Shown here piece after piece: positions 5,818 through 58,154 of a stretch of DNA of 64,000 bases (the first letter of the stretch is position 1; the number at the start of each line of letters is the position of its first letter). The notes under the pieces were generated by a model. It worked only from the letters and a program-made list of their open reading frames with translations. It had not been told where the DNA came from and did not search any database. The DNA lies in assembly GCA_015146655.1 (NCBI GenBank), contig VKHL01000083.1, forward strand, positions 60,360 to 124,359, given 5' to 3'. A program made the position numbers and the translations under genes. This stretch comes from Ochromonas danica. Its lineage: Eukaryota; Sar; Chrysophyceae; Chromulinales; Chromulinaceae.

Positions 5818-6896
5818 ATGCTACTTCATTTATTTGTTGTTATTGTAGTGATTATGTTAGTAGCCCAAGTTCATGGTTTACGTTCTATTGGATTGACGGC
5901 TAGTCGTGGATCATGGAGGTAAGTGATAATAATATGACAAAAAAAACATGAAAACAAAAACAAAAGATCATCTATTTCAACTTCACATTTTTGATCTTCC
6001 TTTTTCAATATTAATTGACTGACCTCTCTCATTCCTTTTTAATCCTTTCTTTCCCTCTTTCTCTCTGTGTGTGTTTGTTTCATATTCTATAGAACTCTTC
6101 TTTCTCGTGCTGCTGTCTCAACTTCTACTTCTGGTGCTAGTCAAACACCTGAATTCCGTATTAACTTTGCTGATGAAGGTCATCCTATCTCTCCTTGGCA
6201 TGACATTCCTTTAAAGAATGGACATGATTTCAATGCTGTTATTGAAATCCCCAAGTTTACCAAGGCTAAGATGGAGGTTGCCACTAAGGAAGCACACAAT
6301 CCTATTGCCCAGGATATCAAGAAAGGTAAATACTTCTAACTTGAGAAAGATCATATTTTTTATTTTATTATTTTATGGGATTGTGATTCTTTGGTATTAT
6401 AGGCAAACTTCGTGATTACCATGGTCCTATCTTCTGGAATTACGGTTGCCTTCCTCAGACATGGGAAGATCCTAATGTCTTACATCCTGTTGTCAATGCT
6501 AAGGGTGATAATGATCCTCTCGATGTGGTAGAGATTGGCTCTGAGGCTTTGGCTTCTGGCACTGTTCATAAGGTGAAGGTTTTGGGTGTTTTGGCTATGA
6601 TCGATGATGGCGAGTTAGACTGGAAACTCATTGCTATCAAGTCTGACGATCCTTTAGCTAAGGAGTTACATGATATTCAAGATGTTGAAGCTAAGTTACC
6701 TGGTACTGTTTCTGGTATTCGCGAATGGTTCCGTTGGTATAAGACTCCTGATGGAAAGCCTCTCAATGGCTTTGGTTTTGAAGAGAAGGCCTTGCCTCGT
6801 GCTAAGGCTCTGGAAGTTATTGAGGAAACTCACCATTTCTGGCAGGCCTTAAGACAAGGCAAGACTGATAAGGGCAAGCTTTGGACAGGTCATTAA
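5818..6896 (+). CDS. Soluble inorganic pyrophosphatase (family I), probably targeted
   Basis: The enzyme hydrolyses pyrophosphate to phosphate, pulling forward reactions such as ATP sulfurylase and nucleic acid synthesis. Exons 5818-5918, 6093-6325 and 6403-6896 join in phase into 275 residues. The family signature GDNDPLDVVEIG (metal-binding Asp residues) is present. So are FWNYGCLPQTWEDP, GELDWKLIAI and the C-terminal EETHHFW segment typical of eukaryotic family I enzymes. Exon 1 encodes a hydrophobic leader (MLLHLFVVIVVIMLVAQVHG) followed by Ser/Thr/Arg-rich sequence, which looks like a signal peptide plus transit peptide for a complex plastid, although the residue after the likely cleavage site is Leu rather than Phe. 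The short first exon was found by hand from an ATG in phase with the splice site. Plastid location is inference; the enzyme call is very sure. Confidence 0.94.
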
Positions 6897-7424: not shown

Positions 7425-9341
7425 ATGACAGCCTTTGAACCTCTTCCTATTGTCATCCCACCTGAAGGAGTGGTGGATATCAAAGATAAGGCTAAGCCTG
7501 TCTGCCAAACTCCTGGTCCTTATCCTCCTCTTGCCTATACTCGAGGCTTCTATGATATCTCTGCATGGAAAGCTAAACTGAAGGAGATCTTTGATACTCC
7601 TGTTTGGCATGAACATGATCATCATTCTCCTACAACAGTGAAGATGGCTCGTGCTGCTCATGATGCTTGGGGAGTGCATAAGATCATCTTCATCTTCTGT
7701 GATGACTTCTTGCAGAAAGTAGTCGAATTACCCAATTATCAGAAGTCAGAATGGAGAGAGTTGATCTTACCTATCTTTCATCAGATGGGAGTAGATGAAA
7801 ATCGTGTAGTACGTTGTCTATTAGCAAGAATGCCATCTGGTGTTTCTATTCCAGTCCATCATGACACAGGTACGGTACAGTGAGTTTAGACTTGGTTACC
7901 TCATGGTTGGTTTTGTTTTTCACTGACAAAGACTACTCTGACGATGATAATGATGATGATGATGATGTTAATTTCTGATCAAGGTTATTGGGTCAAGTAT
8001 ACTCATCGATGTCATGTCGCATTGGAAACAAGTGAACTAGTGGATTTCATGGTTGGACCTAATGAAAACAATATGGTGAAAGTGAGTTCACTTTTATTCC
8101 TTCAACCTGTTAAACTAACTTGGAACTATAACTCACGTAACTCTATATAAATATCCATTTATTGTTAGATGTCATTTGAAGAAGGGAGAATTGTTGAGCT
8201 GAATAATCAATCTAAACACAGTGTTATTAATCGTTTGCCTGAAGGACAATATCGCACTCATATCATCTTCGATTATCTCGATGAAAGCTATCCCTTCCCA
8301 TTACCTAAACGTCTAGCTATTCCTAATGGAGAGACAATCTTCCAAACTCGTCGTTCATTTGATACAGGGAGTGAAGTGAAGAATTATGTGGTACAAGATA
8401 CACAACCCAAGTACATCATTATTGGAGCTCAGGTGAGGATACTATATTCTATTAAGCATACATTAATTTACATCCCTAACTAGATCATTCTCTGATATTG
8501 TTGGAAACAGAGATGTGCTACAGTGTCATTGAATGAATACTTACATCAACATCCTCTCTTGGCCAAGGCGAAAATAGATGAAACGCATTATTTTGATTGG
8601 CGTTTTAATAACAATTTAGCTGAAGATGATGTAGAAGGTCATCGTAATTGCTATATGCAGTTCTATGAGAAGGCATTATTACAGAAACATCCCTCTATTA
8701 GCACAGGGGAGAGTACTCCTTCCTACCTCCTGCACAGTGATGTTGTCCTGCCCAGACTGAAGCGCTATGTTCCTTGGGTGAAGCTGATTGTGATGTTGCG
8801 CAATCCTGTTGACAGAGCCTACTCTCAGTATCAAATGGTGAGTGACATAGAAGGCAGTCCAGAGCAGTTGGCATTACGAGGTCACTCTGAGTATCGAGGA
8901 AGGTCATTCAGCGAAGTGATAGGGTCAGAGATCAAGGAAGTGGAAGAAGCAGGTATCACAGCGGAGAGCAGCTATGAGGAGTTCCGAGAGAAGCTGTTGT
9001 CGAAGAGGAAGGAGATCAAGCATGGAGGTCACTCTGTGATCATTCGAGGTCTGTATGCCCTGCAGCTGTCAGCCTATTTGTCTGAATGGCCAAAGGATCA
9101 ATTGAAGATCTTGTGTATGGAGAGCGATCTGAAGGGATCTGCCGAGCATGTGCAGGAGACGATGGATGGTGTGTTTGGTTATTTGGGTCTGCCTCCTTCT
9201 GAAGTGACAGACACGGCAGCAAAGAACAGTCGATCGTATGATAAGATGAATGTCGAAGATCGAGAACGTTTGGAATCTTTCTATCGTCCTTTCAATGAGA
9301 AGTTGTTCAAGGTGTTAGGCAGAGAGTTTCCATGGCATTGA
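7425..9341 (+). CDS. AspH-type 2-oxoglutarate oxygenase fused to sulfotransferase, copy 1
   Basis: Exons 7425-7869, 7984-8081, 8169-8432 and 8511-9341 join in phase into 545 residues. Residues about 60-220 fit the aspartyl/asparaginyl beta-hydroxylase fold: VHHDTG (iron ligand His145 or 146), HRCH (157-159 region), KHSVIN (second iron ligand His198) and YRTHIIFDYL (Arg210, expected to bind 2-oxoglutarate). Residues about 262-545 are a PAPS-dependent sulfotransferase with the 3'-phosphate motif LRNPVDRAYSQY (Arg366, Ser374). The 5'-phosphosulfate loop reads GAQRCATVSL, so the canonical Lys-Ser-Gly-Thr-Thr of copy 2 is lost, and this copy may be weak or inactive as a sulfotransferase. No signal peptide is evident. 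It is nearly identical to the inverted copy at 19322-21176 except in the middle. The fusion is directly visible; a substrate that is first hydroxylated and then sulfated is inference. Confidence 0.88.
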
Positions 9342-9565
9342 GTAGTGTGATAGTGGATAGAATGTGTGGTCAGGTTAACTTAAGAGGGTTGGACCGTAGA
9401 AAGTCCGTTTGTCCCATCGTTTTTCACTGGCCGTTAGGGCCATCAATGTTCACTCATCATCTTGTCGCTGAAAACTCTTTGAGTAAGAACTGAAAACACT
9501 TCATATCTTTCACATCTCCCCACACCCACACACACACTCTCTCTCTCTCCACCACACGTCATCCC

Positions 9566-12500
9566 ATGGCTTCCTCCTATGCCTCCATGAGGATGATGGA
9601 GTTGACTAGAATCAAATCTCATCATAGGAAATCTACTAGGAAAGATGTCTCCATGGATTCTGTCGAGAGAGCACAACAAGCTTTACAAGATCTACGTCAA
9701 CAACGATTATCCAAACTTGAAAAACGAGTCATTGAACGACAAGAAGCTATTGATTTGATGGAGAATCTACGTATGAAGACCATAGAACAAGTTAGAAAGC
9801 AAGAATCTATGCAAATCACTATGCAATATTTACAAAAGAAGTTCTCACAGCAATTCCTCTATCGTTTACATTGTTTGAGAATTCATCATAGACATCAACA
9901 ACTAGCAGCTATTAAAGGTGATATTCTACTTCAAAAGAGAGCATTAACGAAAATGTTCTGGTCATTGATTGTTACCTCACAACATCGTCTTCTGGGTGAG
10001 ATTAAAGGCAAGCAAGCACTTCTCATTCGATCTTTATCAATCCTTCGGAAGTATATAAAATGGCGTCGGAGAGAATTAGAAAACCGAATTAAGGCTATAG
10101 ATCATTTCAAGATTTTAACTTATAAACGACTTATGGATAGATTGAAATGGACAGGAGCTAGGCAGTATCGTGACCAATATCAGGCGCATTACACGAACAT
10201 ATATAGATCGCTTGGACAGGCATGGAAGACATGGAGATATGTCTATCATCAGATAGCTCGATATAATCATAAAACTGATGCAGCTGGTGAAATATGTATA
10301 ATTCGTAAGAATCGCAGAAAGTTGCGACAAGCATTGATACAATGGAGAACATGTACAACAATTAGTAGCATCAATCGCAGGGTTTTGCGACACTTTTGTA
10401 AACAAGCATTGCAGAGGTTTCTTTTGGCTTTACGATTAGAAGTATATCGTAGTGAAAGAAAGCGTAGTGGATTTAGGAAAAGTTGTAGATTTCGTGAAAG
10501 AAAAGATATACAGCGTTATTTGACCACTTGGATCTGTAGATCTCAATTGAAGCGGACTATTGCAGAAGCTGTATACCATCATTGTCATTTTGGTCGTGGA
10601 GCAAGGTTGAGGAAAAGAAAGTGGTTTTCTGTGTGGAAAGCGTATCATAATAGTCGTATTATTCGAAAAACACGGGAGTTTTCTATAGTGCAGAATCGAA
10701 AGATGGTAAAGGGTACAACTTATCGTAACAAAAAGACAGCTTATAGTTTTCCCTCCAACAAGAGTAATAGACAACTAAAGCTGATTGACGGGAAAGCATC
10801 GAAAAAGCGCTGCTCTCTTATAATAGTTTTGTCAGCTCTATTTCAGCGATTCGTTCGAGCCATTCAAAAGAGTCGATCAAGACGTATTCGGCTCTCTACG
10901 AAGCTCTCGCCTCAACAATTGTCGATCGTTCGAAAGAGGAAGCTATTTAGAATCTTTATTCAAAGGCTAGGAAAGGTCGCTAGAAGGTTCAGACACCATA
11001 AAAAACAACTGTCAGCTCGCAGTCGAAATCTTCTTATCCAAGCATTGACTCGATGGATATTTCGGATTCAACAAATTCGTGCTTTGTCCAAGAATCTTCA
11101 GTTGATTAAGAAGTACTATATTCGACAAAAGTGTTTGCAAAGAACATGGCCTCGTTGGTTGGCTTATCGAAGTTATTTGCGTGTGCAAAATGATAAATAT
11201 GAAATTGGAAGACAAACATTCAAGAGAAATATGTGTAAAAGAGCTTTGGGCTCATGGGTGAATTTTGTCGTGAAAGCAAAGGCCGAAGTGTCTCCAGTTC
11301 GAATAAGGAAAACTTCTTCTCGTTCCCTCTCAGAGCTCGGAATTAAAAGGAATAGTCATGCAATGATTAGGGCACCATCGAAGAGCCTTGTGCCTATTCA
11401 AGGATCTCTGCATTCTATACCAACTTTTAGTGATGATGGAGAGGATGAGGAAGTTCACAGTGTGCACTCCTCAGATAGTCTTCAATTAGCAGATCTCAAT
11501 CCTCCACGAAGAATAAACGAACGTCCACCAGTTTTGTCCAGTCGACTATCAAGGCAAAATGTTGTCGCGGCGCAGCAAAGTGTGTTTCTTCTACCCAAAG
11601 CACAATCAAAAGACAATGCCCAAATCCTGTCGAATCCAAATAAGTTGCGGTCTAGATTTGCTCGCCGCACTGTGCCTAGAGCATTAATGCAATGGAGAGA
11701 ACATGTGGCCTTCAAAAAGAATCTCTACGATGAACTTTACAAGCCAGCGGAGAGGTATTATCGATCAGTCCTTATTTCTCGATATTGGAAGAGACTGCTA
11801 CGAGCGAGATACTCCAAAAGAGAGGAAGATTCTTTCATCCGTAACTATCGAACAGAAAAACAAATCCCTTTGCTATTGCATTTGTACTTAAGACGCTTGA
11901 AGCACTGTGTGGAGGAGCGCTATAACATTAAAGCTGACTTTGAAAGAGCAGAATGGTTCGCTACAAAGCAGTATGGAAAGGAATTAATGAGGATTTGGCA
12001 CAACGTCGCAGACCGTTCAGCAACGATTAATCGGGGTTATGCAATGGCTCGAAGCTACCACAGCACGAAAATCAAGCGATCGCGTTTCTCATTGTTGAAA
12101 TGCTACTTACATAATTCAAAGGAAGCTGCAGAGAAGTCGAGTATAGCTAAACAGTATTTCAGGCTGGAGATGAAACGCAAAGCGCTTCAACAATGGCATC
12201 GCTTCAATCAAGGCCGAAAAATAATGGATAAGAGTCGTAAAACTGCCAAGAACTATTTGCAATGTAGGCTCTTGGTTGCCTTGAGAAAATTTGCCAGTCT
12301 TCATTTGATCAAGAAGAAAGAAATCATCCAGAAATGCAAAACTCTTCACTCTGTGAAATCTCGCAGAAAACTGTCTCGTGCGTTCTCTTTTCTCCACTAC
12401 TTCGCCCAAAGACGTTCGTCACGTGCCAAAATGTCAGCCAAAGCACGTTTGCTGCGTAATTCTCATCTCTTGAGAAAGTGTTTTGTGAGTGGCCTCAAAG

Positions 12501-15214
12501 TTTTCATACAAGAGGCCATTGGAGCGACGATGGCTCTTTTCGCAAAGTCCAGGAGTCACATGGTTCGAAGGTCTCTACGTTTGGCATTTCGCTGCTTGAA
12601 AGATCGCAGCAGAGATAGAAAGAATGAAAAGGCTAAGGTTCGCTCCGTCGCTTTGACATGTCGAGGGAAAAAGATGCTAAGAATTCGTTGGCTTCAGTAC
12701 TTTGTTCAAAACCTTCGCAAAAAGAGAAAGGAGAGCAAAGCTCGCGCAGATCATTATTGGTCAAGAAAACGATGTCAGCTCCTTTTCCGCAGATGGCTTT
12801 ACTTTGTTTTGTTGAGTAGAAAGAAGATATATCGATTATTGTCGAGTTTACAACTCTTTGCGAAGGATTTCACCAGAAATCTCACGTCAGACTTATCATT
12901 GAAATCCGCAAGCAAGATATCTGCAGTCAATTCCTTTAAGAAGTCAGTGGTAGCTCCCAAACAGGCAAAGGATAATAGAGATAATACATTGACTCTTCGC
13001 AATGAAATGACCCCAGTATCTCAATGGATGCGCAAGCAACGCCTCAAGAATATCGTTGCTGTAAATAAATGGATTACTCAACGAAATAAGCAACGACGTG
13101 GAATCCGTGGTTTGAAAACCCTTTTCAGATCTTTGGAAATGAAGAAAAAGGAGATGACTTTAGCTGATCGGACCTATTATTTAACTCATACTAGGCACTT
13201 CCTACTGCAGGCGCTGCCATCGTACATACAGGAACAACGTTCTATACGTGATCGATATCGAAGTTGCGATCGTCATTATATCTACCGATTGGCTAATCAA
13301 TCTGTGGCAACATTATCCGATTATGTTCGGAGATGCAGATTTGAAAAAGTTGCTGAACGAACATATCAAACTAATTGCTTGTCGTTTTATTATTTGTGGT
13401 GGCGGCAGTTAGTGTTAACGCCTGCAGCCTTTTCTCGACTTTATTCGATTACAGCGGAGCGCACAGATACTAGTCAAAACGATAATGCCAGCAAAAAGAA
13501 AGTTAAAGTTATGGGTAATCGACCAGGCACTATTCAAGCACTTATTTATGACAGCTGCGCTGAAAGGGAGAAGATCGTCAGAGATGGACGTGATGACACG
13601 AATAAGGATGAATATTTACCAATAGATGAAATGGGTCAGCTCTCCTTTCACTCTGCGCTTCGTTCGCTGATGAAAAAGGCAAAGATATCTATGATGAGCA
13701 GTGGTCGCTTGTCGCAGAGTCTAAAGATTGCCCAAGCAGCAACCCATCATTTTCGCAGAAATGTATCTTCATTCTTTAATCGATTGCAAGAGTTACGATT
13801 GCAAAGTCGAAGGCGGACCACTATACTGTCTTCTTCTATCCTGCCAATGGGTTTTGCTGCACAGCGAAACGAAAGGAGCGTAAAGATCGGCACTAAATCG
13901 GGTGAGAAGAAAAGAAAGCGAGTGCTTGACAGCGAGGTCATGCGTCTCACCTTGGTTAAAAACGCATACCAACAAATGAAAAACAATGTGATTGAACGCC
14001 ATCGATCTTCAGGGCAAATGCAGCAAGCTAATCAGAGCCATAATCTACGTCTCCTCCGGGATGCCTTTTATTTCTACCTAACTTATCATCGAGATCATAA
14101 ACACTCGACTCAAGTTCATCTTCTCCTATTACGACGTCACTTTGCACGAATGAGAAGCATTGCATCTGGACGCAGAAAAACACGGAATGTTCTGCGTCTC
14201 ATGATGCATAGTATCAGCCATAGCTCATTGTTCCACAGCTTCCGAGAATGGAAGATAGATACTTTAATCGAACGTAAGTGCGAGAAAGCACTTGAGCAGC
14301 ATAAGCGATCGGACTTGGAACAAGCTTTCGAGACATTCTTTCAGGGGCTTCGCTTGCACAAAAAGCGGAGAATCTTTCTTCAAAAGAGTCGTGAACATCT
14401 TCTTCAAGCCAGACAAAAACGATTCTTTGATAATTGCTTTGCGAGTTTGGATTTGCGATACAAGCAGCGAGATCAGATTCTTCAAGCTCAACGGTACTAT
14501 CTTGATACTGCTCGAAGAACAGTGTTATCAAATCTGCTATTTTTCAGGAGGAATCGCATTGCTATGCAGTGCTTTTCACGGAGAGCATTCAAGGCGTTCC
14601 GCTCTGCCATGCAAATTCAAATTGCGTGCAATCATTTCCATAAGACGCTTGAAAGCCGTTCAATCCATTCTTTGTTGAGGAATCAATTTGACTTGTTCGG
14701 CATACAACTGAGAAAACTGGTGGCACTGCGACAGATTTATCAAATAACACCCGCTGATAAACTTCGTTATGATGCCTACCATCGAGCTGCTACACTGGGC
14801 CGGGTGCTAGGGAGATTGAAGAAGGGCGTGGAGGCCCGTAGAACAGCTCAACTAGTGGGCAACTATTACGAAAACTACTCTTGGTATTATCTCCTCCGCA
14901 CTCATTTCCTCAAGCTCCAAAGACAATACTTTCGTCGCTTACGCCTACGTAAGAACAAATCACTGCTGGTGGAGTTGGAACGACTTCAGAAGCAGCGTCG
15001 GGTGATGCGCATTTGGGATGCCCTTCTTTCTCATCGTATTTTCCTCAACTATCAAAAGCAGAAGCTGTCTGTTCATGCTCAAAGCCATCGACTACGAGCA
15101 GCTTTGAAATGGTTACACAAGTTCAGTGAACGTCGTCAAGCAAAGAGACGCAGCTCCTTCCGCAAATCCTTGGTACATACTTTACCGAATGAGGAATCTC
15201 TAGTACCTCAGTAA
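9566..15214 (+). CDS. Giant Sfi1-like centrin-binding repeat protein
   Basis: A single uninterrupted frame of 1,882 residues begins at the ATG after a CT-rich leader. It is very rich in Arg and Lys and is made of many alpha-helical units of about 30-35 residues. Each unit has a conserved Trp preceded by small or aliphatic residues, for example AWKTWRYV, ALIQWRTC, ALTRWIFR, ALGSWVNF, ALMQWREH, LMRIWHNV, ALQQWHRF, SFREWKID and VMRIWDAL. This matches the Sfi1 repeat pattern, in which each repeat binds one centrin on a long helix at centrosomes, basal bodies or spindle poles. A less regular Ser-rich linker lies at about residues 570-690. Such proteins suit a flagellate with basal bodies and contractile centrin fibres. 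It is intronless in a neighbourhood of spliced genes. Family assignment rests on repeat pattern only; centrin binding is inferred. Confidence 0.8.
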   Translation: MASSYASMRMMELTRIKSHHRKSTRKDVSMDSVERAQQALQDLRQQRLSKLEKRVIERQEAIDLMENLRMKTIEQVRKQESMQITMQYLQKKFSQQFLYRLHCLRIHHRHQQLAAIKGDILLQKRALTKMFWSLIVTSQHRLLGEIKGKQALLIRSLSILRKYIKWRRRELENRIKAIDHFKILTYKRLMDRLKWTGARQYRDQYQAHYTNIYRSLGQAWKTWRYVYHQIARYNHKTDAAGEICIIRKNRRKLRQALIQWRTCTTISSINRRVLRHFCKQALQRFLLALRLEVYRSERKRSGFRKSCRFRERKDIQRYLTTWICRSQLKRTIAEAVYHHCHFGRGARLRKRKWFSVWKAYHNSRIIRKTREFSIVQNRKMVKGTTYRNKKTAYSFPSNKSNRQLKLIDGKASKKRCSLIIVLSALFQRFVRAIQKSRSRRIRLSTKLSPQQLSIVRKRKLFRIFIQRLGKVARRFRHHKKQLSARSRNLLIQALTRWIFRIQQIRALSKNLQLIKKYYIRQKCLQRTWPRWLAYRSYLRVQNDKYEIGRQTFKRNMCKRALGSWVNFVVKAKAEVSPVRIRKTSSRSLSELGIKRNSHAMIRAPSKSLVPIQGSLHSIPTFSDDGEDEEVHSVHSSDSLQLADLNPPRRINERPPVLSSRLSRQNVVAAQQSVFLLPKAQSKDNAQILSNPNKLRSRFARRTVPRALMQWREHVAFKKNLYDELYKPAERYYRSVLISRYWKRLLRARYSKREEDSFIRNYRTEKQIPLLLHLYLRRLKHCVEERYNIKADFERAEWFATKQYGKELMRIWHNVADRSATINRGYAMARSYHSTKIKRSRFSLLKCYLHNSKEAAEKSSIAKQYFRLEMKRKALQQWHRFNQGRKIMDKSRKTAKNYLQCRLLVALRKFASLHLIKKKEIIQKCKTLHSVKSRRKLSRAFSFLHYFAQRRSSRAKMSAKARLLRNSHLLRKCFVSGLKVFIQEAIGATMALFAKSRSHMVRRSLRLAFRCLKDRSRDRKNEKAKVRSVALTCRGKKMLRIRWLQYFVQNLRKKRKESKARADHYWSRKRCQLLFRRWLYFVLLSRKKIYRLLSSLQLFAKDFTRNLTSDLSLKSASKISAVNSFKKSVVAPKQAKDNRDNTLTLRNEMTPVSQWMRKQRLKNIVAVNKWITQRNKQRRGIRGLKTLFRSLEMKKKEMTLADRTYYLTHTRHFLLQALPSYIQEQRSIRDRYRSCDRHYIYRLANQSVATLSDYVRRCRFEKVAERTYQTNCLSFYYLWWRQLVLTPAAFSRLYSITAERTDTSQNDNASKKKVKVMGNRPGTIQALIYDSCAEREKIVRDGRDDTNKDEYLPIDEMGQLSFHSALRSLMKKAKISMMSSGRLSQSLKIAQAATHHFRRNVSSFFNRLQELRLQSRRRTTILSSSILPMGFAAQRNERSVKIGTKSGEKKRKRVLDSEVMRLTLVKNAYQQMKNNVIERHRSSGQMQQANQSHNLRLLRDAFYFYLTYHRDHKHSTQVHLLLLRRHFARMRSIASGRRKTRNVLRLMMHSISHSSLFHSFREWKIDTLIERKCEKALEQHKRSDLEQAFETFFQGLRLHKKRRIFLQKSREHLLQARQKRFFDNCFASLDLRYKQRDQILQAQRYYLDTARRTVLSNLLFFRRNRIAMQCFSRRAFKAFRSAMQIQIACNHFHKTLESRSIHSLLRNQFDLFGIQLRKLVALRQIYQITPADKLRYDAYHRAATLGRVLGRLKKGVEARRTAQLVGNYYENYSWYYLLRTHFLKLQRQYFRRLRLRKNKSLLVELERLQKQRRVMRIWDALLSHRIFLNYQKQKLSVHAQSHRLRAALKWLHKFSERRQAKRRSSFRKSLVHTLPNEESLVPQ

Positions 15215-19321: not shown

Positions 19322-21176
19322 TCAATGCCATGGAAACTCTCTGCCTAACACCTTGAACAACTTCTCATTGAAAGGACGATAGAAAGATTCCAAACGTTCT
19401 CGATCTTCGACATTCATCTTATCATACGATCGACTGTTCTTTGCTGCCGTGTCTGTCACTTCAGAAGGAGGCAGACCCAAATAACCAAACACACCATCCA
19501 TCGTCTCCTGCACATGCTCGGCAGATCCCTTCAGATCGCTCTCCATACACAAGATCTTCAATTGATCCTTTGGCCATTCAGACAAATAGGCTGACAGCTG
19601 CAGGGCATACAGACCTCGAATGATCACAGAGTGACCTCCATGCTTGATCTCCTTCCTCTTCGACAACAGCTTCTCTCGGAACTCCTCATAGCTGCTCTCC
19701 GCTGTGATACCTGCTTCTTCCACTTCCTTGATCTCTGACCCTATCACTTCGCTGAATGACCTTCCTCGATACTCAGAGTGACCTCGTAATGCCAACTGCT
19801 CTGGACTGCCTTCTATGTCACTCACCATTTGATACTGAGAGTAGGCTCTGTCAACAGGATTGCGCAACATCACAATCAGCTTCACCCAAGGAACATAGCG
19901 CTTCAGTCTGGGCAGGACAACATCACTGTGCAGGAGGTAGGAAGGAGTACTCTCCCCTGTGCTAATAGAGGGATGTTGTTGTAGTGCTTCTCGTTCATAG
20001 AATTGCAGGTAATAGTTACGATGACCTTCTACATCATCTTCAGCTAAATTGTTATTAAAACGCCAATCAAAATAATGTGTTTCTCTACGTTTCCCTTTCG
20101 CTAGAAGAGGATGTTGATGCAAGTATTCATACATCGATGTAGTACCAGATTTCTAAGATCATCAATAATACAAGCTATTATTATGTTGACACTATTATCT
20201 GATATCATGATGCACTATAACATACCTGAGCTCCAATAATGATGTACTTGGGTTGTGTATCTTGTACCACATAATTCTTCACTTCACTCCCTGTATCAAA
20301 TGAACGACGAGTTTGGAAGATTGTCTCTCCATTAGGAATAGCTAGACGTTTAGGTAATGGGAAGGGATAGCTTTCATCGAGATAATCGAAGATGATATGA
20401 GTGCGATATTGTCCTTCAGGCAGACGATTAACAACACTGTGTTTAGCATAGTTATTCAATTCAAGGATCTTTCCTTCTTCGAAACCCATCTAGTACATAT
20501 CATGTATTTATATGCGCTGATTAGGAAAGTGTAACTTAAGGTTAATGCTATTTGTTCATAGTAGACGTATACCTTGACCATACTGTCTTCATTAGGACCA
20601 ACCATGAAGTCAATAGCTTCCAGATTAGTCTCAATAGGAACATGACAACGATGTGTATATTGTACCCAATAACCTAGGAAGAAAGAAATCATCATGTCTA
20701 ATAGCTAAATTGTGCTATTATTGTCACTTACCTGTGTCATGATGGACTGGGACAGATACACCAGAAGGTAACCTTGCTAATAGACAACGTACTACACGAT
20801 TTTCATCTACTCCCATCTGATGAAAGATAGGTAAGATCAACTCTCTCCATTCTGACTTCTGATAATTGGGTAATTCGACTACTTTCTGCAAGAAGTCATC
20901 ACAGAAGATGAAGATGATCTTATGCACTCCCCAAGCATCATGAGCAGCACGAGCCATCTTCACTGTTGTAGGAGAATGATGATCATGTTCATGCCAAACA
21001 GGAGTATCAAAGATCTCCTTCAGTTTAGCTTTCCATGCAGAGATATCATAGAAGCCTCGAGTATAGGCAAGAGGAGGATAAGGACCAGGAGTTTGGCAGA
21101 CAGGCTTAGCCTTATCTTTGATATCCACCACTCCTTCAGGTGGGATGACAATAGGAAGAGGTTCAAAGGCTGTCAT
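19322..21176 (-). CDS. AspH-type 2-oxoglutarate oxygenase fused to sulfotransferase, copy 2
   Basis: Exons 21176-20732, 20673-20573, 20489-20226 and 20152-19322 have the same splice phases as copy 1 and give 546 residues, one more because exon 2 is 3 bases longer. The oxygenase half keeps VHHDTG, HRCH, KHSVVN and YRTHIIFDYL. The sulfotransferase half has a textbook PAPS loop, GAQKSGTTSMYEYL, and the motif LRNPVDRAYSQY, so this copy looks fully competent. The last 217 residues are identical to copy 1, and exon 1 differs at only two residues. Exon 2 and the ends of exons 3 and 4 facing it are clearly diverged. This fits partial gene conversion between inverted copies. No targeting signal is seen, suggesting a cytosolic enzyme. 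The closest known families are AspH (PF05118) and Sulfotransfer_1; the substrate is unknown. Confidence 0.9.
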
Positions 21177-30254: not shown

Positions 30255-30805
30255 ATCTTGCAGTCCAAAATGTCTAAAATAACTGTAAAATGTGGTAAAA
30301 AGAAGATCCTCTTCCCACCTTCTATCGAAGAGACTAGAAGCATACCATGGCACAGTACTCTCTTCACAGGAAAGAAGAATTAACGGTGGACATTGGAAAG
30401 TGATGGCTTCTTCATTCATATAGTAGATGATATCGATCTTCCCAGCGGGTGGTGCAGGGACATCATCAATGAAATTACAAATATACCGCTCCATAGGAAT
30501 AGCATTGACAACTTGTTGTTGACTGTTACCACTACCTCCACTACCTCTATTACCACTAGATAGAGCTTCCCGGTTTTAGTGTTGAAATACCCTCTGCCAC
30601 CACTACTACCAACGCTACCCCTACTTCCACCACTACCTCTTCTTCCTTTCCGATGCAGCTCCACTGCTAGTATAGCCACTACTGCTCCTCCCACGAGAAC
30701 TCTGTCCTTTTCCAACACCTCCTCCTGTTCCACTTCTTCTTCGATGATCAGGAAAGGCTTGTAGGAAAGGAAAGCAAAAGAATTCAATTCCTTCAGGAAG
30801 ACTTC
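30255..30805 (-). pseudogene. Decayed inverted copy of part of the DENN gene
   Basis: The minus strand closely matches the DENND4-like gene starting 0.9 kb downstream. It carries PEGIEF, then SSGGRGYFNTKT, KLYL, MERYICNFIDDVPAPPAGKI, YYMNEEAITFQCPPL and PWYASSL in the parental order. Large pieces are missing between these islands. They correspond to parental positions of roughly 32245-32395, 32585-32680 and 32860-33265, and reading frames shift between islands. There is no start codon context and no intact domain. The copy has no parental introns to test, since the matched part is a single exon. It is a truncated, rearranged duplicate rather than a functional gene. Confidence 0.85.
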
Positions 30806-31672: not shown

Positions 31673-34600
31673 ATGGAAGATGTCTTCCATCGTAACTCAG
31701 CACGACGTGTTGCTGAGTATTTCGTTATGGTAGGCTTTAACTTTCCAGGACTCTTAGAACTATGTGATATCAACAATGAGCAACAACTACAACAGCAAGG
31801 AGGAGGAGAACAACAACAACAGGAAGAGGTAGAAGAGGAAGCTGAGCGGGCAGTGTCGCCTTTATTGCCAGACTATCCTTCTTCTCCTGCTCCGTTAAGG
31901 AGACAGACTGCTACCTCCTCAGCCACAGTCAACTCCACTCCTACACCTTCTAAAACACATGAGTTTGAATTCCATGGTGGATATGTGGATCTATTGACCA
32001 CTTCCTTTGAAGCCACTGTCATCATGCGCTATCCTGACTCACGCTGCCAACAACAAACTAATAACAACAACAATGCACAGAGACAAAGTTCAGGGTTAAA
32101 TGACTCCATCTACTCGATCAATAGTGTCGATCTACTAGACAATAATAACGCACAAGCTAGTAGTAGCAGTAGTGGTGGTCGAGGTAGTGGTCGAAAGGGT
32201 AATAGCTTTCCTGAAGGAATTGAATTCTTCTGCTTTCCTAAAGGACTAACCTTTCTACAACGACCATGTCCACCAGCTTTCCATTCCTTTGTTCATACCT
32301 CAGAGTATGGATCTAGACTCATCGGATGCTGTTTGACCATTTGTGAGGAGTTGACAGAGGAAGAGTATGAGATGGTCAATACCGTCTATGCTCATATGCA
32401 AGCCTTACCTGATCATCGAAGAAGAAGTGGAACAGGAGGTGGAGTAGGAGGAGAAGGACAGAGTTCTCGTGTGAGGAGTAGTAGTGGCTATACCAATGCA
32501 GGAGGAGGAAGAGGTGGTATTGGTACTGGTAGCAGTGGTGGCAGAGGGTATTTCAACACTAAAACCAGAAAGCTCTATCTACAAAAGGCTTTATGTGTCC
32601 TAAGCAATTGGCCCTTTGTGGATGCATTTCGTCGCTATCTCATCGCCTTATATCAAATGGTAGGAGGTAGTGGTAACAGTAGTAGAGGTAGTGGAGGTAG
32701 TGGTAGCAGTCAACAACAAGTTGTCAATGCTATTCCTATGGAGCGGTATATTTGTAATTTCATTGATGATGTTCCTGCACCACCCGCTGGGAAGATCGAT
32801 ATCATCTACTATATGAATGAAGAAGCCATCACTTTCCAATGTCCACCGTTAAATCTTCCTTCCAATTGGTTATCTTTCCCATTAACTCCTCTGTTTCAAT
32901 GTTTATCCATGCATAATCTATTATCCGTCTTTACTGCTTTATTAATTGAAAGACAGATTGTCTTAATCTCATCGCAGTTTAGTCTGTTAACCTATTGTGC
33001 GGAAGGATTAGTCTCGTTATTATATCCTATGACATGGTTACATCCATATATCCCTATCTTGCCATCTCGTCTATTAGGAGTGTTAGGGGCACCTTTTCCT
33101 TTCCTGGTAGGATTACATGATACTATCTATGAAGGAAATAAATCTTCCTTAGGCAGTGAGGTAGTTAAAGTATTCCTAGATCAGGATATTGTTGAAGTAG
33201 GCACATTAGGACCTTTACCTGCATTACCTGATCATCGGAAAGGAAAGCTTATGATAGCATTAGAAAGTGCTGTTCCGTGGTATGCTTCTAGTCTAGTCTC
33301 TTCGATAGAAGGTAGGAAGAGGATCTTCTTAGCGTTAAGAGAGAAGATTAAGAACTTTGACCTGCAACTAGCCACTACACTACCTAACGGAGGTAGTGGT
33401 GGAGGAGGTAGTATGGGGAGGGGAAGTGTGGCTACTTCTGTTTCTGCTGGTAGTGTTGGTGTTGGTGTTGGTAGGGTAAATATGGATGATAGTGGTAGTG
33501 CTACTGGTGAGGATGGTAGTGATAATACGGTTAGAGTTGGTCGACGATCTCATAGCACACCTACCATCTCCAATACTACTAGTGGAGCAGCAACAGGAGT
33601 AACAGGAGCAGGAGCAGGAGGGTCTGGTAATAGTCGAAAGAGTCTTGCTGGTAGTAGTGCAGCTAGTGTTGGTAGTAGTAGTGGAGGAGGAGGGCCAGTC
33701 TATTCCATCACTGCGGGAGGTCAAGCTGTGGTAGCATCTATCTATGGTCCTATCAACCGTGTGCATAACACTTACTCCTTCTTCTCTTCCTCTTCCCATG
33801 CTAACAATAGTGGGAAGACGTCTTCCTATGGTGGTAGTGGTAGCAATGGAACCTCCACCGACCCCACCACTCCCTCTACCTCTGCCACTACTTCTTCAGG
33901 TAAATGGGATGTGAATCGTATGACTGTCAAAGAAGAAGCGATACGAGAAGGCTTCTTGAAGTTCTTTGTCAACATGTTGAAGTACTATAAGCGCTACCTC
34001 ATCTACAAGGCTGAGGAGGAGGACCCGCTGAAGAAGTTCCGCTTCCAAGACTTCCTCACAGCACATAGTTCAGATTGGCATCCTTTGCTCAAGGCATTGA
34101 GTGATACCATGTGCTTCTCAAAGTTTATTGATGAGCGAGTTGTCTTAGCCAAGTTAGATCGAGGTAAGTCTGACAGACTGACTGTGTGTATCGTGCTCAC
34201 TTCCCTCCTCATTGCTAATGTAATGACTGTTATAATGTCATGATTGTGCTGTTAGATGTGGTCTTCTTCGATGAAGCTATTGATGCTAAACTCAATCGCT
34301 ACACTTTCCGCTGGCGAGACCTGGACACTCCCTTCCTCCTCAGTAATACTACCGGACATGTTAAGACCTACGTCACTCCCTCACCTTGCACTACCGACCT
34401 GGTAGGGAAGAGAGAAGGTAGTCCTTATTACCACAGCGACTGTCAAGGCTTTCTCTACCCACGCTTTCCTACTCTCTCGTAAGTTGACACTCCCTCCTCT
34501 TCCTACTACCACTACTACCTGCTAACAAACTACTGCTGTTGGCGATACTATTAGATGGGATCTCTTCATCCCACCTCGTAATCTTGCTGCTCAATTTGGT

Positions 34601-55604: not shown

Positions 55605-58154
55605 ATGACCCAATCAACAGCAACAACACCTACAAATCGCAAGTCCATGCGAGGTAATGGTCTAGTCAGTGAGATGGTGAAAGCTGTCGAACAAGTTGTT
55701 GAAAATCAACGACAATCTTGTCGTATCTTAGCTCATCGTCTTTCTATAGACAGACAATATTTCTTTTCTTCTAATAAACGTATCTCACTTTCAAAGGAAT
55801 TACTTCCTTTAGAAGTCGTTAGTCCTCATAAGAAAAAACCTCCTTCTATTATCACCTCTAAAGAAGGCGGAGGAGAAGGGGGTAGTAGTCGAGGAGGATT
55901 TAGCAGAGGAAAGAATGTCTCTTTCTATTCCTCTTCCATTGAAGAAGAAAGTAACGAACTTGAAGTCTATACCAGTTGGATTGAAGGAGGTGTCTTGCCT
56001 AAGAAGAAGAAGCACAAGAAGCGCTCCATGGGAAGTAATGACTTTCATAACTGTGAATACGATGATGATGAAGATGATGACGAGGAAGAGTTTATTGACT
56101 ATATGGCTTCCTTCCAACGAACTCGCTCGATTAGTAGTTTAAGCCATGAGAGCCATTTCTTTAGTAGTAATGATACTGAGAGATATCTGTCTGATATGCG
56201 TTATCATAAAGATCAAGAAGAAGAAGAAAACCTTGTCGTGGTGAGACATCATCAGATTTTCTTCCAAGATGATGACACGAAAACAGAGGAGAAAGAGGCG
56301 GAGACTGAGGAACAACAACTACCGCAGAAACTACTACTAGAAGAGGATGAGGAGAAAGTGGTTAATATGCAGTCCACCTCGACAAAACTGGATGACAGCC
56401 TGCCTGATTTAGATGACTGCTGCCATCCTATTGCTGCTGCTACTATTTCTTTTTCTGACTCCTTTTATGTTCGGCCAGCGCGCGGTGTTACTATGCGCAG
56501 CATGTGTGTTGAGGATCGCGTGGCTATTGCCATTGCTGGAGGTATTGATCCTCTGGTAAAGTTGTTGTCTGATACGAATAGCGGAGTGAGAGAACAAGCT
56601 GCGAGTGCCTTGAGAAATCTGTCGGTAGATGCTGAGAATCGTGAGAGAATAGGCCGAGCTGGAGCTATTGATGCTTTAGTGAAGCTCTTGTCCGATGAGA
56701 GTGCTGGCGTACGAGGAGCAGCAATCATTGCTTTGAGGAATCTGTCTCATAGTTCTACAAATCATGGATTAATAGCCAAAGCCAATGGCATTCCTCCTCT
56801 AGTCAAGGCTCTGTCGGATGCGAATGCCTTTTTGAAAGAGGCAGCCACGGGAATCATATGCAATCTCTCGTTACATGATGAAAGCAAAGAGTTGATTGCC
56901 ATTGCGGAAGGAATTCGTCCGTTGATCTGTTTGTTATCTGACAATAAAGATGATGTGCGTATTTCTGCTGCGGGTGCATTGAAGACTCTTGCTCTCAATG
57001 CTGAGAATCGCGTGGCTATTGCCGTTGCTGGTGGTGTTGATCCTTTAGTGAAGTTGTTGTCTGATGATGATAGTGGAGTTAGAGAACAAGCTGCGGGTGC
57101 CTTGAGAAATCTGTCAGTAGATGCTGAGAATCGTGTAACGATTGGCCGAGCAGGGGCTATTGATCCTTTGGTAAAGCTGTTATCCGATGAGGATGTAAGT
57201 GTACGAGAACCAGCTGCGGGGGCTGTTTGGAATCTTGCTGTGGACAATAACGAAAATCGGGCATTAATAGTGAGAGTGGGAGGAATCGAACCTTTAGTTG
57301 GTCTGCTATCGCATGGTAGTCTTGGGGTAAGAAATGCAGCAGCTGGTGCACTGAACAATCTCACGGTTAATGCCGAGAGTCAGATCTTAGTTGCCAGAGC
57401 TGGAGCTATTGAGCCTTTGGTGAGTTTGTTATCTGATAGGCATGGTGGTGTGAGACAAGCAGCTGCTGGGGCCTTGAGAAATCTTTCTGCCAACGCCGAG
57501 AATAAGGAACTAATCGCTGCAGCAGGTGGAATTGATTCTTTGATCAAGTTATTGGCTGATCGAAATGCTGGAGTGAGAAATACTGCCACGGCAGCATTAT
57601 GGAATCTGTCGTTAAATGCCGAGAACAAGGTGCTGATAGCGAAAGCGGGAGGGATTGATCCTTTGGTGAAGCGTTTGTTTGGTGATAATAACGAAGGGAC
57701 GAAAAGGTGTGCTGCTGGTTTATTGAGAACACTCTCAATCAATGCTGAGAATCGTGTCGCGATTGCCATTGCTGGGGGAGTTGATCCTCTGGTAAAGTTA
57801 CTGTTTGATGCGAATAGCGGAGTGAGAGAGCAAGCTGCGGGTGCCTTGAGAAATCTGTCAGTAGATGCTGAGAATCGTGTTATAATTGGCCGAGCAGGGG
57901 CTATCGATGCTTTAGTAAAACTCTTATCCGATGGGAGTGCTAGTGTACGAGAAGCAGCATTCATTACTTTAAGGAATCTGTCTCATAATTCCGAAAATCG
58001 TGTATCAATAGCCAAAGCGGGACATGTGAACACTTTCGTTCGGATCTTGTATAGTGGGGATGCAGTTGTAAGAGTTGTAGCGGCTCGAGCATCGCGTAAT
58101 CTACCTGATAGTGAGCGACATCTGAGCAGTTGCTGTATATGCTATGCTGGGTAG
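55605..58154 (+). CDS. Armadillo-repeat protein
   Basis: One intronless frame encodes 849 residues from the ATG at 55605. The first 300 residues are hydrophilic with acidic stretches (EYDDDEDDDEEEF). From about residue 300, some 13 armadillo repeats of 41-42 residues follow, with the pattern A-I-A-x-A-G-G-I-D-P-L-V-K-L-L-S-D-x-x-x-x-V-R-x-x-A-x-x-A-L-R-N-L-S. They are very similar to each other, such as DPLVKLLSD and GALRNLSVDAENR occurring three times, and at DNA level the block at about 56520-56780 recurs near 57755-58020. Such right-handed superhelices bind peptides or partner proteins, as in Vac8 and plant ARO/ARIA-type proteins. The end, SERHLSSCCICYAG, has three Cys but no CaaX box. Partner and pathway cannot be read. 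The strong internal similarity indicates recent repeat amplification. Confidence 0.9.
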   Translation: MTQSTATTPTNRKSMRGNGLVSEMVKAVEQVVENQRQSCRILAHRLSIDRQYFFSSNKRISLSKELLPLEVVSPHKKKPPSIITSKEGGGEGGSSRGGFSRGKNVSFYSSSIEEESNELEVYTSWIEGGVLPKKKKHKKRSMGSNDFHNCEYDDDEDDDEEEFIDYMASFQRTRSISSLSHESHFFSSNDTERYLSDMRYHKDQEEEENLVVVRHHQIFFQDDDTKTEEKEAETEEQQLPQKLLLEEDEEKVVNMQSTSTKLDDSLPDLDDCCHPIAAATISFSDSFYVRPARGVTMRSMCVEDRVAIAIAGGIDPLVKLLSDTNSGVREQAASALRNLSVDAENRERIGRAGAIDALVKLLSDESAGVRGAAIIALRNLSHSSTNHGLIAKANGIPPLVKALSDANAFLKEAATGIICNLSLHDESKELIAIAEGIRPLICLLSDNKDDVRISAAGALKTLALNAENRVAIAVAGGVDPLVKLLSDDDSGVREQAAGALRNLSVDAENRVTIGRAGAIDPLVKLLSDEDVSVREPAAGAVWNLAVDNNENRALIVRVGGIEPLVGLLSHGSLGVRNAAAGALNNLTVNAESQILVARAGAIEPLVSLLSDRHGGVRQAAAGALRNLSANAENKELIAAAGGIDSLIKLLADRNAGVRNTATAALWNLSLNAENKVLIAKAGGIDPLVKRLFGDNNEGTKRCAAGLLRTLSINAENRVAIAIAGGVDPLVKLLFDANSGVREQAAGALRNLSVDAENRVIIGRAGAIDALVKLLSDGSASVREAAFITLRNLSHNSENRVSIAKAGHVNTFVRILYSGDAVVRVVAARASRNLPDSERHLSSCCICYAG

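Follow-up and report, generated by a model that had tools for sequence, protein, structure and literature searches.

A predicted oxygenase-sulfotransferase fusion and its inverted paralogue in Ochromonas danica

The closest described systems for the gene presented here belong to two separate enzyme classes: the oxygenases dependent on Fe(II) and 2-oxoglutarate, such as AspH (PF05118), and the sulfotransferases using 3'-phosphoadenosine 5'-phosphosulfate (PAPS), whose glycan-modifying members of the 3-OST/NDST type are Golgi membrane proteins. Both domains are individually known, and databases already show the two on single proteins. According to PMC8252765, human AspH displays the motif HXG...H, binds iron via H679 and H725 and contacts a co-substrate analogue with R735, R688 and H690; the Fe(II)/2-oxoglutarate halogenases display HXA/G...H. 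The present work deals with a 64,000-nucleotide stretch of the Ochromonas danica genome (assembly GCA_015146655.1, contig VKHL01000083.1, positions 60,360 to 124,359 of the forward strand), referred to below as the window. A gene located at 7425-9341 of this window (copy 1) encodes an oxygenase domain and a sulfotransferase domain in one polypeptide, and an inverted paralogue (copy 2) is found further downstream.

The fusion differs from the AspH/PF05118 family by the carboxylate of its HxD...H motif, by its sulfotransferase half and by the lack of a TPR part. The free proline hydroxylases (proline 3-hydroxylase 1e5r; cis-4-hydroxylase 4p7w/4p7x) share 14-16% identity with it over the aligned part and carry no sulfotransferase. 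Compared with the 3-OSTs and NDST1, the fusion is devoid of an obvious membrane anchor and possesses an oxygenase half, and copy 1 additionally lacks the lysine, the glycine and the second threonine of the PAPS loop. R166 and K215 of 3-OST-3 are absent from the fusion family, and the bacterial sulfotransferase 3rnl (Alicyclobacillus) is a 311-residue chain without an oxygenase domain. No description of the fusion was found in the titles and abstract beginnings of the open-access papers listed by the literature searches, which is not a proof of absence. Oxygenase names, looked for in papers on algal sulfotransferases (PMC4659905, PMC7291590, PMC11468063) and on oomycete domain fusions (PMC2705460), returned nothing on it.

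Gene structure and active sites

Copy 1 lies on the forward strand, with its ATG at 7425 and a stop codon ending at 9341, and consists of four exons encoding 545 residues. With 12 sets of splice sites keeping the frame open, the model retained was selected by eye for the best donors. The EukProt gene model P0001 is identical to the resulting protein across all 545 residues; it may be derived from the same assembly and is therefore not an independent proof. A preliminary description of the locus had announced an oxygenase followed by a sulfotransferase in one polypeptide at these coordinates. This is borne out by the Pfam search it had proposed, where both halves exceed the curated cut-offs: Asp_Arg_Hydrox (PF05118) matches residues 120-217 with 25.2 bits (cut-off 22.6) and Sulfotransfer_1 (PF00685) residues 261-506 with 26.8 bits (cut-off 22). 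Sulfotransfer_3 scores 23.8 bits, under its cut-off of 27. The AspH and sulfotransferase landmarks named at that stage are present in the translation, and exon 3 joins the end of the oxygenase and the start of the sulfotransferase in one frame.

Homologues were retrieved by a protein search with copy 1 (E <= 0.001), which yielded 232 matches; 120 of these, referred to below as the matches listed, served for domain counts. The alignment comprises 79 of these 120, i.e. 78 others besides the copy 1 sequence. All 78 aligned homologues share seven residues of the oxygenase half with copy 1, namely H145, D147, R157, H159, H198, R210 and H212. Since position 146 varies, being histidine in 77 and tyrosine in one, the motif reads H-x-D. 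The extended form H-x-D-x-G occurs in 107 of the 120 matches listed, the remaining 13 being 336-405 residues long and thus too short for both halves, and H145-x-D147...H198 is present in both copies of the window. Judged from the sequence, the iron site is accordingly an ordinary HxD...H triad with its carboxylate, accompanied by a 2-oxoglutarate-binding arginine (R210), and the fold prediction displays the double-stranded beta-helix of Fe(II)/2-oxoglutarate oxygenases. The two-histidine site without carboxylate, typical of human AspH and previously attributed to this gene, is contradicted by the invariant H145, D147 and H198. The structure prediction that had been suggested as a check gave the beta-helix oxygenase and sulfotransferase folds. 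In a profile alignment, the HHD of copy 1 is placed opposite the HSD of a PF05118 exon from the same genome, a weak match with a probability of only 2.5%.

The sulfotransferase half belongs to the 3-OST/NDST class of Sulfotransfer_1 by both profile score and fold. The catalytic glutamate E293 and the 3'-phosphate serine S374 are found in copy 1 and in 78 of 78 aligned homologues, and copy 1 also keeps H295, D298 and R366. Its PAPS loop, GAQRCATVS, is exceptional: the other 119 of the 120 matches listed carry K, G and T at the equivalent positions. The three changes, K270R, G272A and T274V, affect residues that are identical in all aligned homologues and in copy 2, where the K-x-G-T-T loop of the family is intact; copy 1 reads RCATV instead. 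In addition, copy 1 has D292 at a position occupied by arginine or lysine in 78 of 78, and its N277 and I291 are not seen in any of them. By pattern, the K-x-G-T loop is also absent from P0174, a protein outside the alignment that is listed with PF05118 only.

The fusion family and the second copy

At least 83 homologues carry both PF05118 and a sulfotransferase domain (83 of the 120 matches listed, from a precomputed Pfam column), and those without both domains are often partial. Named rows in this and a second listing, together 175 proteins, originate from brown algae (Ectocarpus, Pylaiella), other algae (Tribonema, Chrysoparadoxa, Phaeothamnion, Ochromonadaceae, Triparma, Phaeomonas, Chrysophaeum), oomycetes (Phytophthora, Pythium, Plasmopara, Peronospora, Aphanomyces, Saprolegnia, Achlya) and the thraustochytrid Hondaea. 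Diatoms are represented by Ditylum and by the label Psemu1, which we take to be a Pseudo-nitzschia. The named rows are nearly all stramenopiles, the only others being the dinoflagellate Durusdinium and a metagenome-assembled genome (MAG) of Alphaproteobacteria. Of the two lineages in which a search for the fusion had been proposed, the stramenopiles display it in many groups, and haptophytes do not appear among the named matches listed, most rows being nameless. Members of transcriptome origin (source mmetsp) include P0086 and P0132, as well as P0103, which spans both halves. A tree was built from 45 chosen rows; of its 42 inner branches 26 are well supported, and the named sequences largely fall into known stramenopile groups. 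The window copies and P0002 stand beside a group containing Ochromonadaceae sp. CCMP2298, the support at this fork being 93/85 and thus below the starred level. Because both the spread and the tree follow these groups, the fusion is an ancient stramenopile family, probably transmitted for the most part by vertical descent. Since oomycetes, diatoms, brown algae and chrysophytes have all retained it, its product would be expected to be a metabolite or modification shared by the whole group.

The only possibly bacterial relatives among the matches listed are P0085, a fusion protein encoded by the alphaproteobacterial MAG (longest contig 1.95 Mb), and the metagenome protein P0074, which is 51% identical to P0085; they may be bacterial members or the result of transfer. 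Pattern scans for bacterial neighbourhoods that might hint at the substrate matched 6 and 41 genome-contig stretches and 20 viral-contig stretches, none of which was confirmed. The oxygenase half used alone as a query produced 177 matches; among the 120 listed, 117 were new and 76 of these were shorter than 250 residues, which may be fragments or true single-domain proteins. Elsewhere in the O. danica genome, PF05118 matches two adjoining places on contig C156 (G000:C156:50406-53256) and one on C248 (2482-2820). In score and frame length the latter equals one of the C156 matches, and the two are possibly duplicates or a repeated assembly.

Copy 2 is inverted (21176-19322, reverse strand), encodes 546 residues and has its introns at the same places as copy 1. 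A search of the genome (31 Mb, 337 contigs), in which just the best candidates are scored, revealed no third fusion gene; the next match is located on contig C10 with 40% identity over residues 259-379. The two copies are without differences in codons 1-134, 205-269 and 329-545 (416 codons). All 66 changed codons (34 synonymous and 32 other, including one indel) are confined to codons 135-204 and 270-328, i.e. one diverged patch per active-site region, each surrounding introns. Substitution rates were obtained by Nei-Gojobori counting with Jukes-Cantor correction: the synonymous rate (dS), which is near saturation, amounts to 1.31 in the oxygenase patch and 1.12 in the sulfotransferase patch, and the nonsynonymous rate (dN) to 0.14 and 0.16, respectively. 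The introns align at 47-52%, and the similarity of the copies ends at the ATG and 8 bases past the stop codon. The alternation of identical blocks with patches of dS above 1 suggests old duplicates followed by recent gene conversion of coding blocks; an assembly error is a less likely origin of the identical blocks.

The changes were polarised with the nearest relatives P0002, P0028 and P0260, which allowed 17 of the 31 substituted sites to be assigned and left 14 unassigned. The changes in the oxygenase patch fall to copy 1 at one site and to copy 2 at eight, those in the sulfotransferase patch to copy 1 at seven sites and to copy 2 at one (Fisher p = 0.0034, the test having been picked after seeing the data). 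When P0002 alone is taken as reference, it agrees with copy 1 at 9 and with copy 2 at 3 of the 17 oxygenase-patch sites, and at 3 and 10, respectively, of the 15 sites in the sulfotransferase patch (p = 0.017). Residues unseen in the 78 others are distributed likewise: six in the sulfotransferase patch and one in the oxygenase patch of copy 1, none and three in those of copy 2. The three residues of copy 2 (V142, L190 and Y195) are not named ligands of the metal or co-substrate, and V142 also occurs in P0002; both activities are therefore probably retained in copy 2, and the data do not demonstrate a clean division of labour. Such a split after duplication, with copy 1 combining an ancestral oxygenase patch and a derived PAPS loop, copy 2 the reverse, and gene conversion keeping the rest identical, is proposed as a tentative idea only. 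If true, the copies may cooperate, possibly as a mixed complex with a shared scaffold, and the ratio of hydroxylated to hydroxylated and sulfated products could be controlled. The pair in any case constitutes a natural experiment, in which mostly letter-identical copies differ in two active-site regions and each activity has a built-in control.

Proposed function and alternatives

From the gene structure, homology, fold prediction, conservation and copy comparison, we infer with moderate confidence a soluble bifunctional hydroxylase/sulfotransferase, of which copy 1 would keep the hydroxylase site with an impaired or altered sulfotransferase and copy 2 would keep both sites. By analogy with relatives, the beta-helix oxygenase of the N-terminal half would hold iron on H145, D147 and H198 and 2-oxoglutarate on R210, R157 and H159, and would most likely hydroxylate a C-H bond. 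The C-terminal half would be a PAPS-dependent enzyme of the same type as the heparan-sulfate 3-O/N sulfotransferases, relying on the family loop lysine 270, the catalytic E293 and S374 for the 3'-phosphate, and in the family would most likely place sulfate on the hydroxyl just formed or on one next to it. The substrate may be a small polar or amino-acid-like molecule of the cytosol rather than a Golgi glycan, because the fusions have no obvious membrane segment: in a crude hydropathy scan of 131 proteins (those of 175 listed that passed a motif and length filter), a single one displayed a membrane-like N-terminal segment. The hydroxylation-then-sulfation pair first suggested for this locus thus stands as a sensible proposal for a fusion kept across many stramenopile groups and becomes doubtful for the sulfotransferase of copy 1, where otherwise invariant PAPS-loop residues are changed. 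Copy 1 probably acts as a hydroxylase whose sulfotransferase activity is weak, altered or missing.

Several points weigh against this assignment. The score against PF05118 is modest, and the structure comparison ranks several 2-oxoglutarate oxygenase families equally. The active-site match to 3-OST-3 is incomplete, since its required R166 and K215 align with T274 and S337 of the fusion family. The gene is known here from sequence alone, and the action of both domains on one substrate is deduced from their fusion. The loss in copy 1 is itself not certain: PMC11625862 defines the PAPS-loop residue as lysine or arginine, in agreement with R270 in copy 1 and the lysine in copy 2, and reports arginine and alanine as natural constituents of the Mt Stf0 loop, so that copy 1 may still use PAPS. 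A fully bifunctional copy 1 with an unusual yet working loop, as in Mt Stf0, is an alternative, although an unlikely one. Its frame is intact, the sulfotransferase patch (dN 0.16 against dS 1.12 between copies, patch dN/dS about 0.14) has evolved under purifying selection and not by free decay, and E293, H295, D298, R366 and S374 are retained; the three broken invariant loop positions, D292 and the unseen N277 and I291 argue for an impaired site.

It is rather doubtful that the halves were fused for co-regulation or assembly and act on separate substrates, or modify separate sites within one larger acceptor, for instance a glycan or a protein. The sulfotransferase half is nearest to the glycan enzymes 3-OST and NDST, but the rarity of a Golgi-type anchor speaks against a glycan acceptor and the constancy of domain order over deep stramenopile splits favours coupled steps.

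Ochromonas danica is known for chlorosulfolipids, and the tree places the gene close to a chrysophyte sequence, both in keeping with the chlorination role once envisaged for the oxygenase half. This role is highly improbable: the gene is also carried by oomycetes and a thraustochytrid, organisms from which we know of no chlorosulfolipids. The structural argument was lost with D147, invariant in the 78 homologues where halogenases have HXA/G...H (PMC8252765), and a halogenase without carboxylate was rejected on this ground. Listings of the literature on halogenase and chlorosulfolipid genes contained no paper naming the enzyme. Finally, a misjoin of two genes or an assembly artefact, conceivable for a model built from genomic DNA and for copies sharing long identical blocks, can practically be dismissed in view of the two-domain homologues, some of them transcriptome-sourced, the single frame of exon 3 and the differing introns and flanks of the copies.

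Feature coordinates and neighbouring genes

Table 1. Exons of the two fusion genes in the window
Feature	Position	Strand	Basis or remark
Copy 1 exon 1, N-terminal part and start of oxygenase domain, ends HHDT	7425..7869	+	Gene model; P0001 identical
Copy 1 exon 2, GYWVKYTHRCH... region (R157, H159)	7984..8081	+	Gene model
Copy 1 exon 3, H198, R210, oxygenase end, linker, PAPS-loop start (GAQ)	8169..8432	+	Gene model, alignment
Copy 1 exon 4, sulfotransferase domain, unusual PAPS loop RCATV, intact 3'-phosphate motif LRNPVDRAYSQY	8511..9341	+	Gene model, Pfam, alignment
Copy 2 exon 1, inverted paralogue, first 134 codons DNA-identical to copy 1	20732..21176	-	
Copy 2 exon 2	20573..20673	-	One of three open models, picked by donor site
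Copy 2 exon 3	20226..20489	-	Gene model
Copy 2 exon 4, sulfotransferase domain, canonical loop KSGTT	19322..20152	-	Sulfotransfer_1 29.9 bits (cut-off 22)

Copy 1 is preceded by a frame encoding an inorganic pyrophosphatase (6387-6896, forward strand; PF00719, 126.7 bits). It is followed by a single open frame of 1906 codons (9494-15214, forward strand), very basic, the 1878-residue part of which (from 9578) gave no Pfam match at E 0.001; its recurring W-containing segments are reminiscent of Sfi1-type repeats. An inverted repeat of 185 nucleotides, 97% complementary, occupies 30369-30553 and 32679-32863, the second arm lying inside a DENN-domain frame, and direct repeats about 123 nucleotides apart are found within an armadillo-repeat protein frame at 56474-58081 (forward strand).
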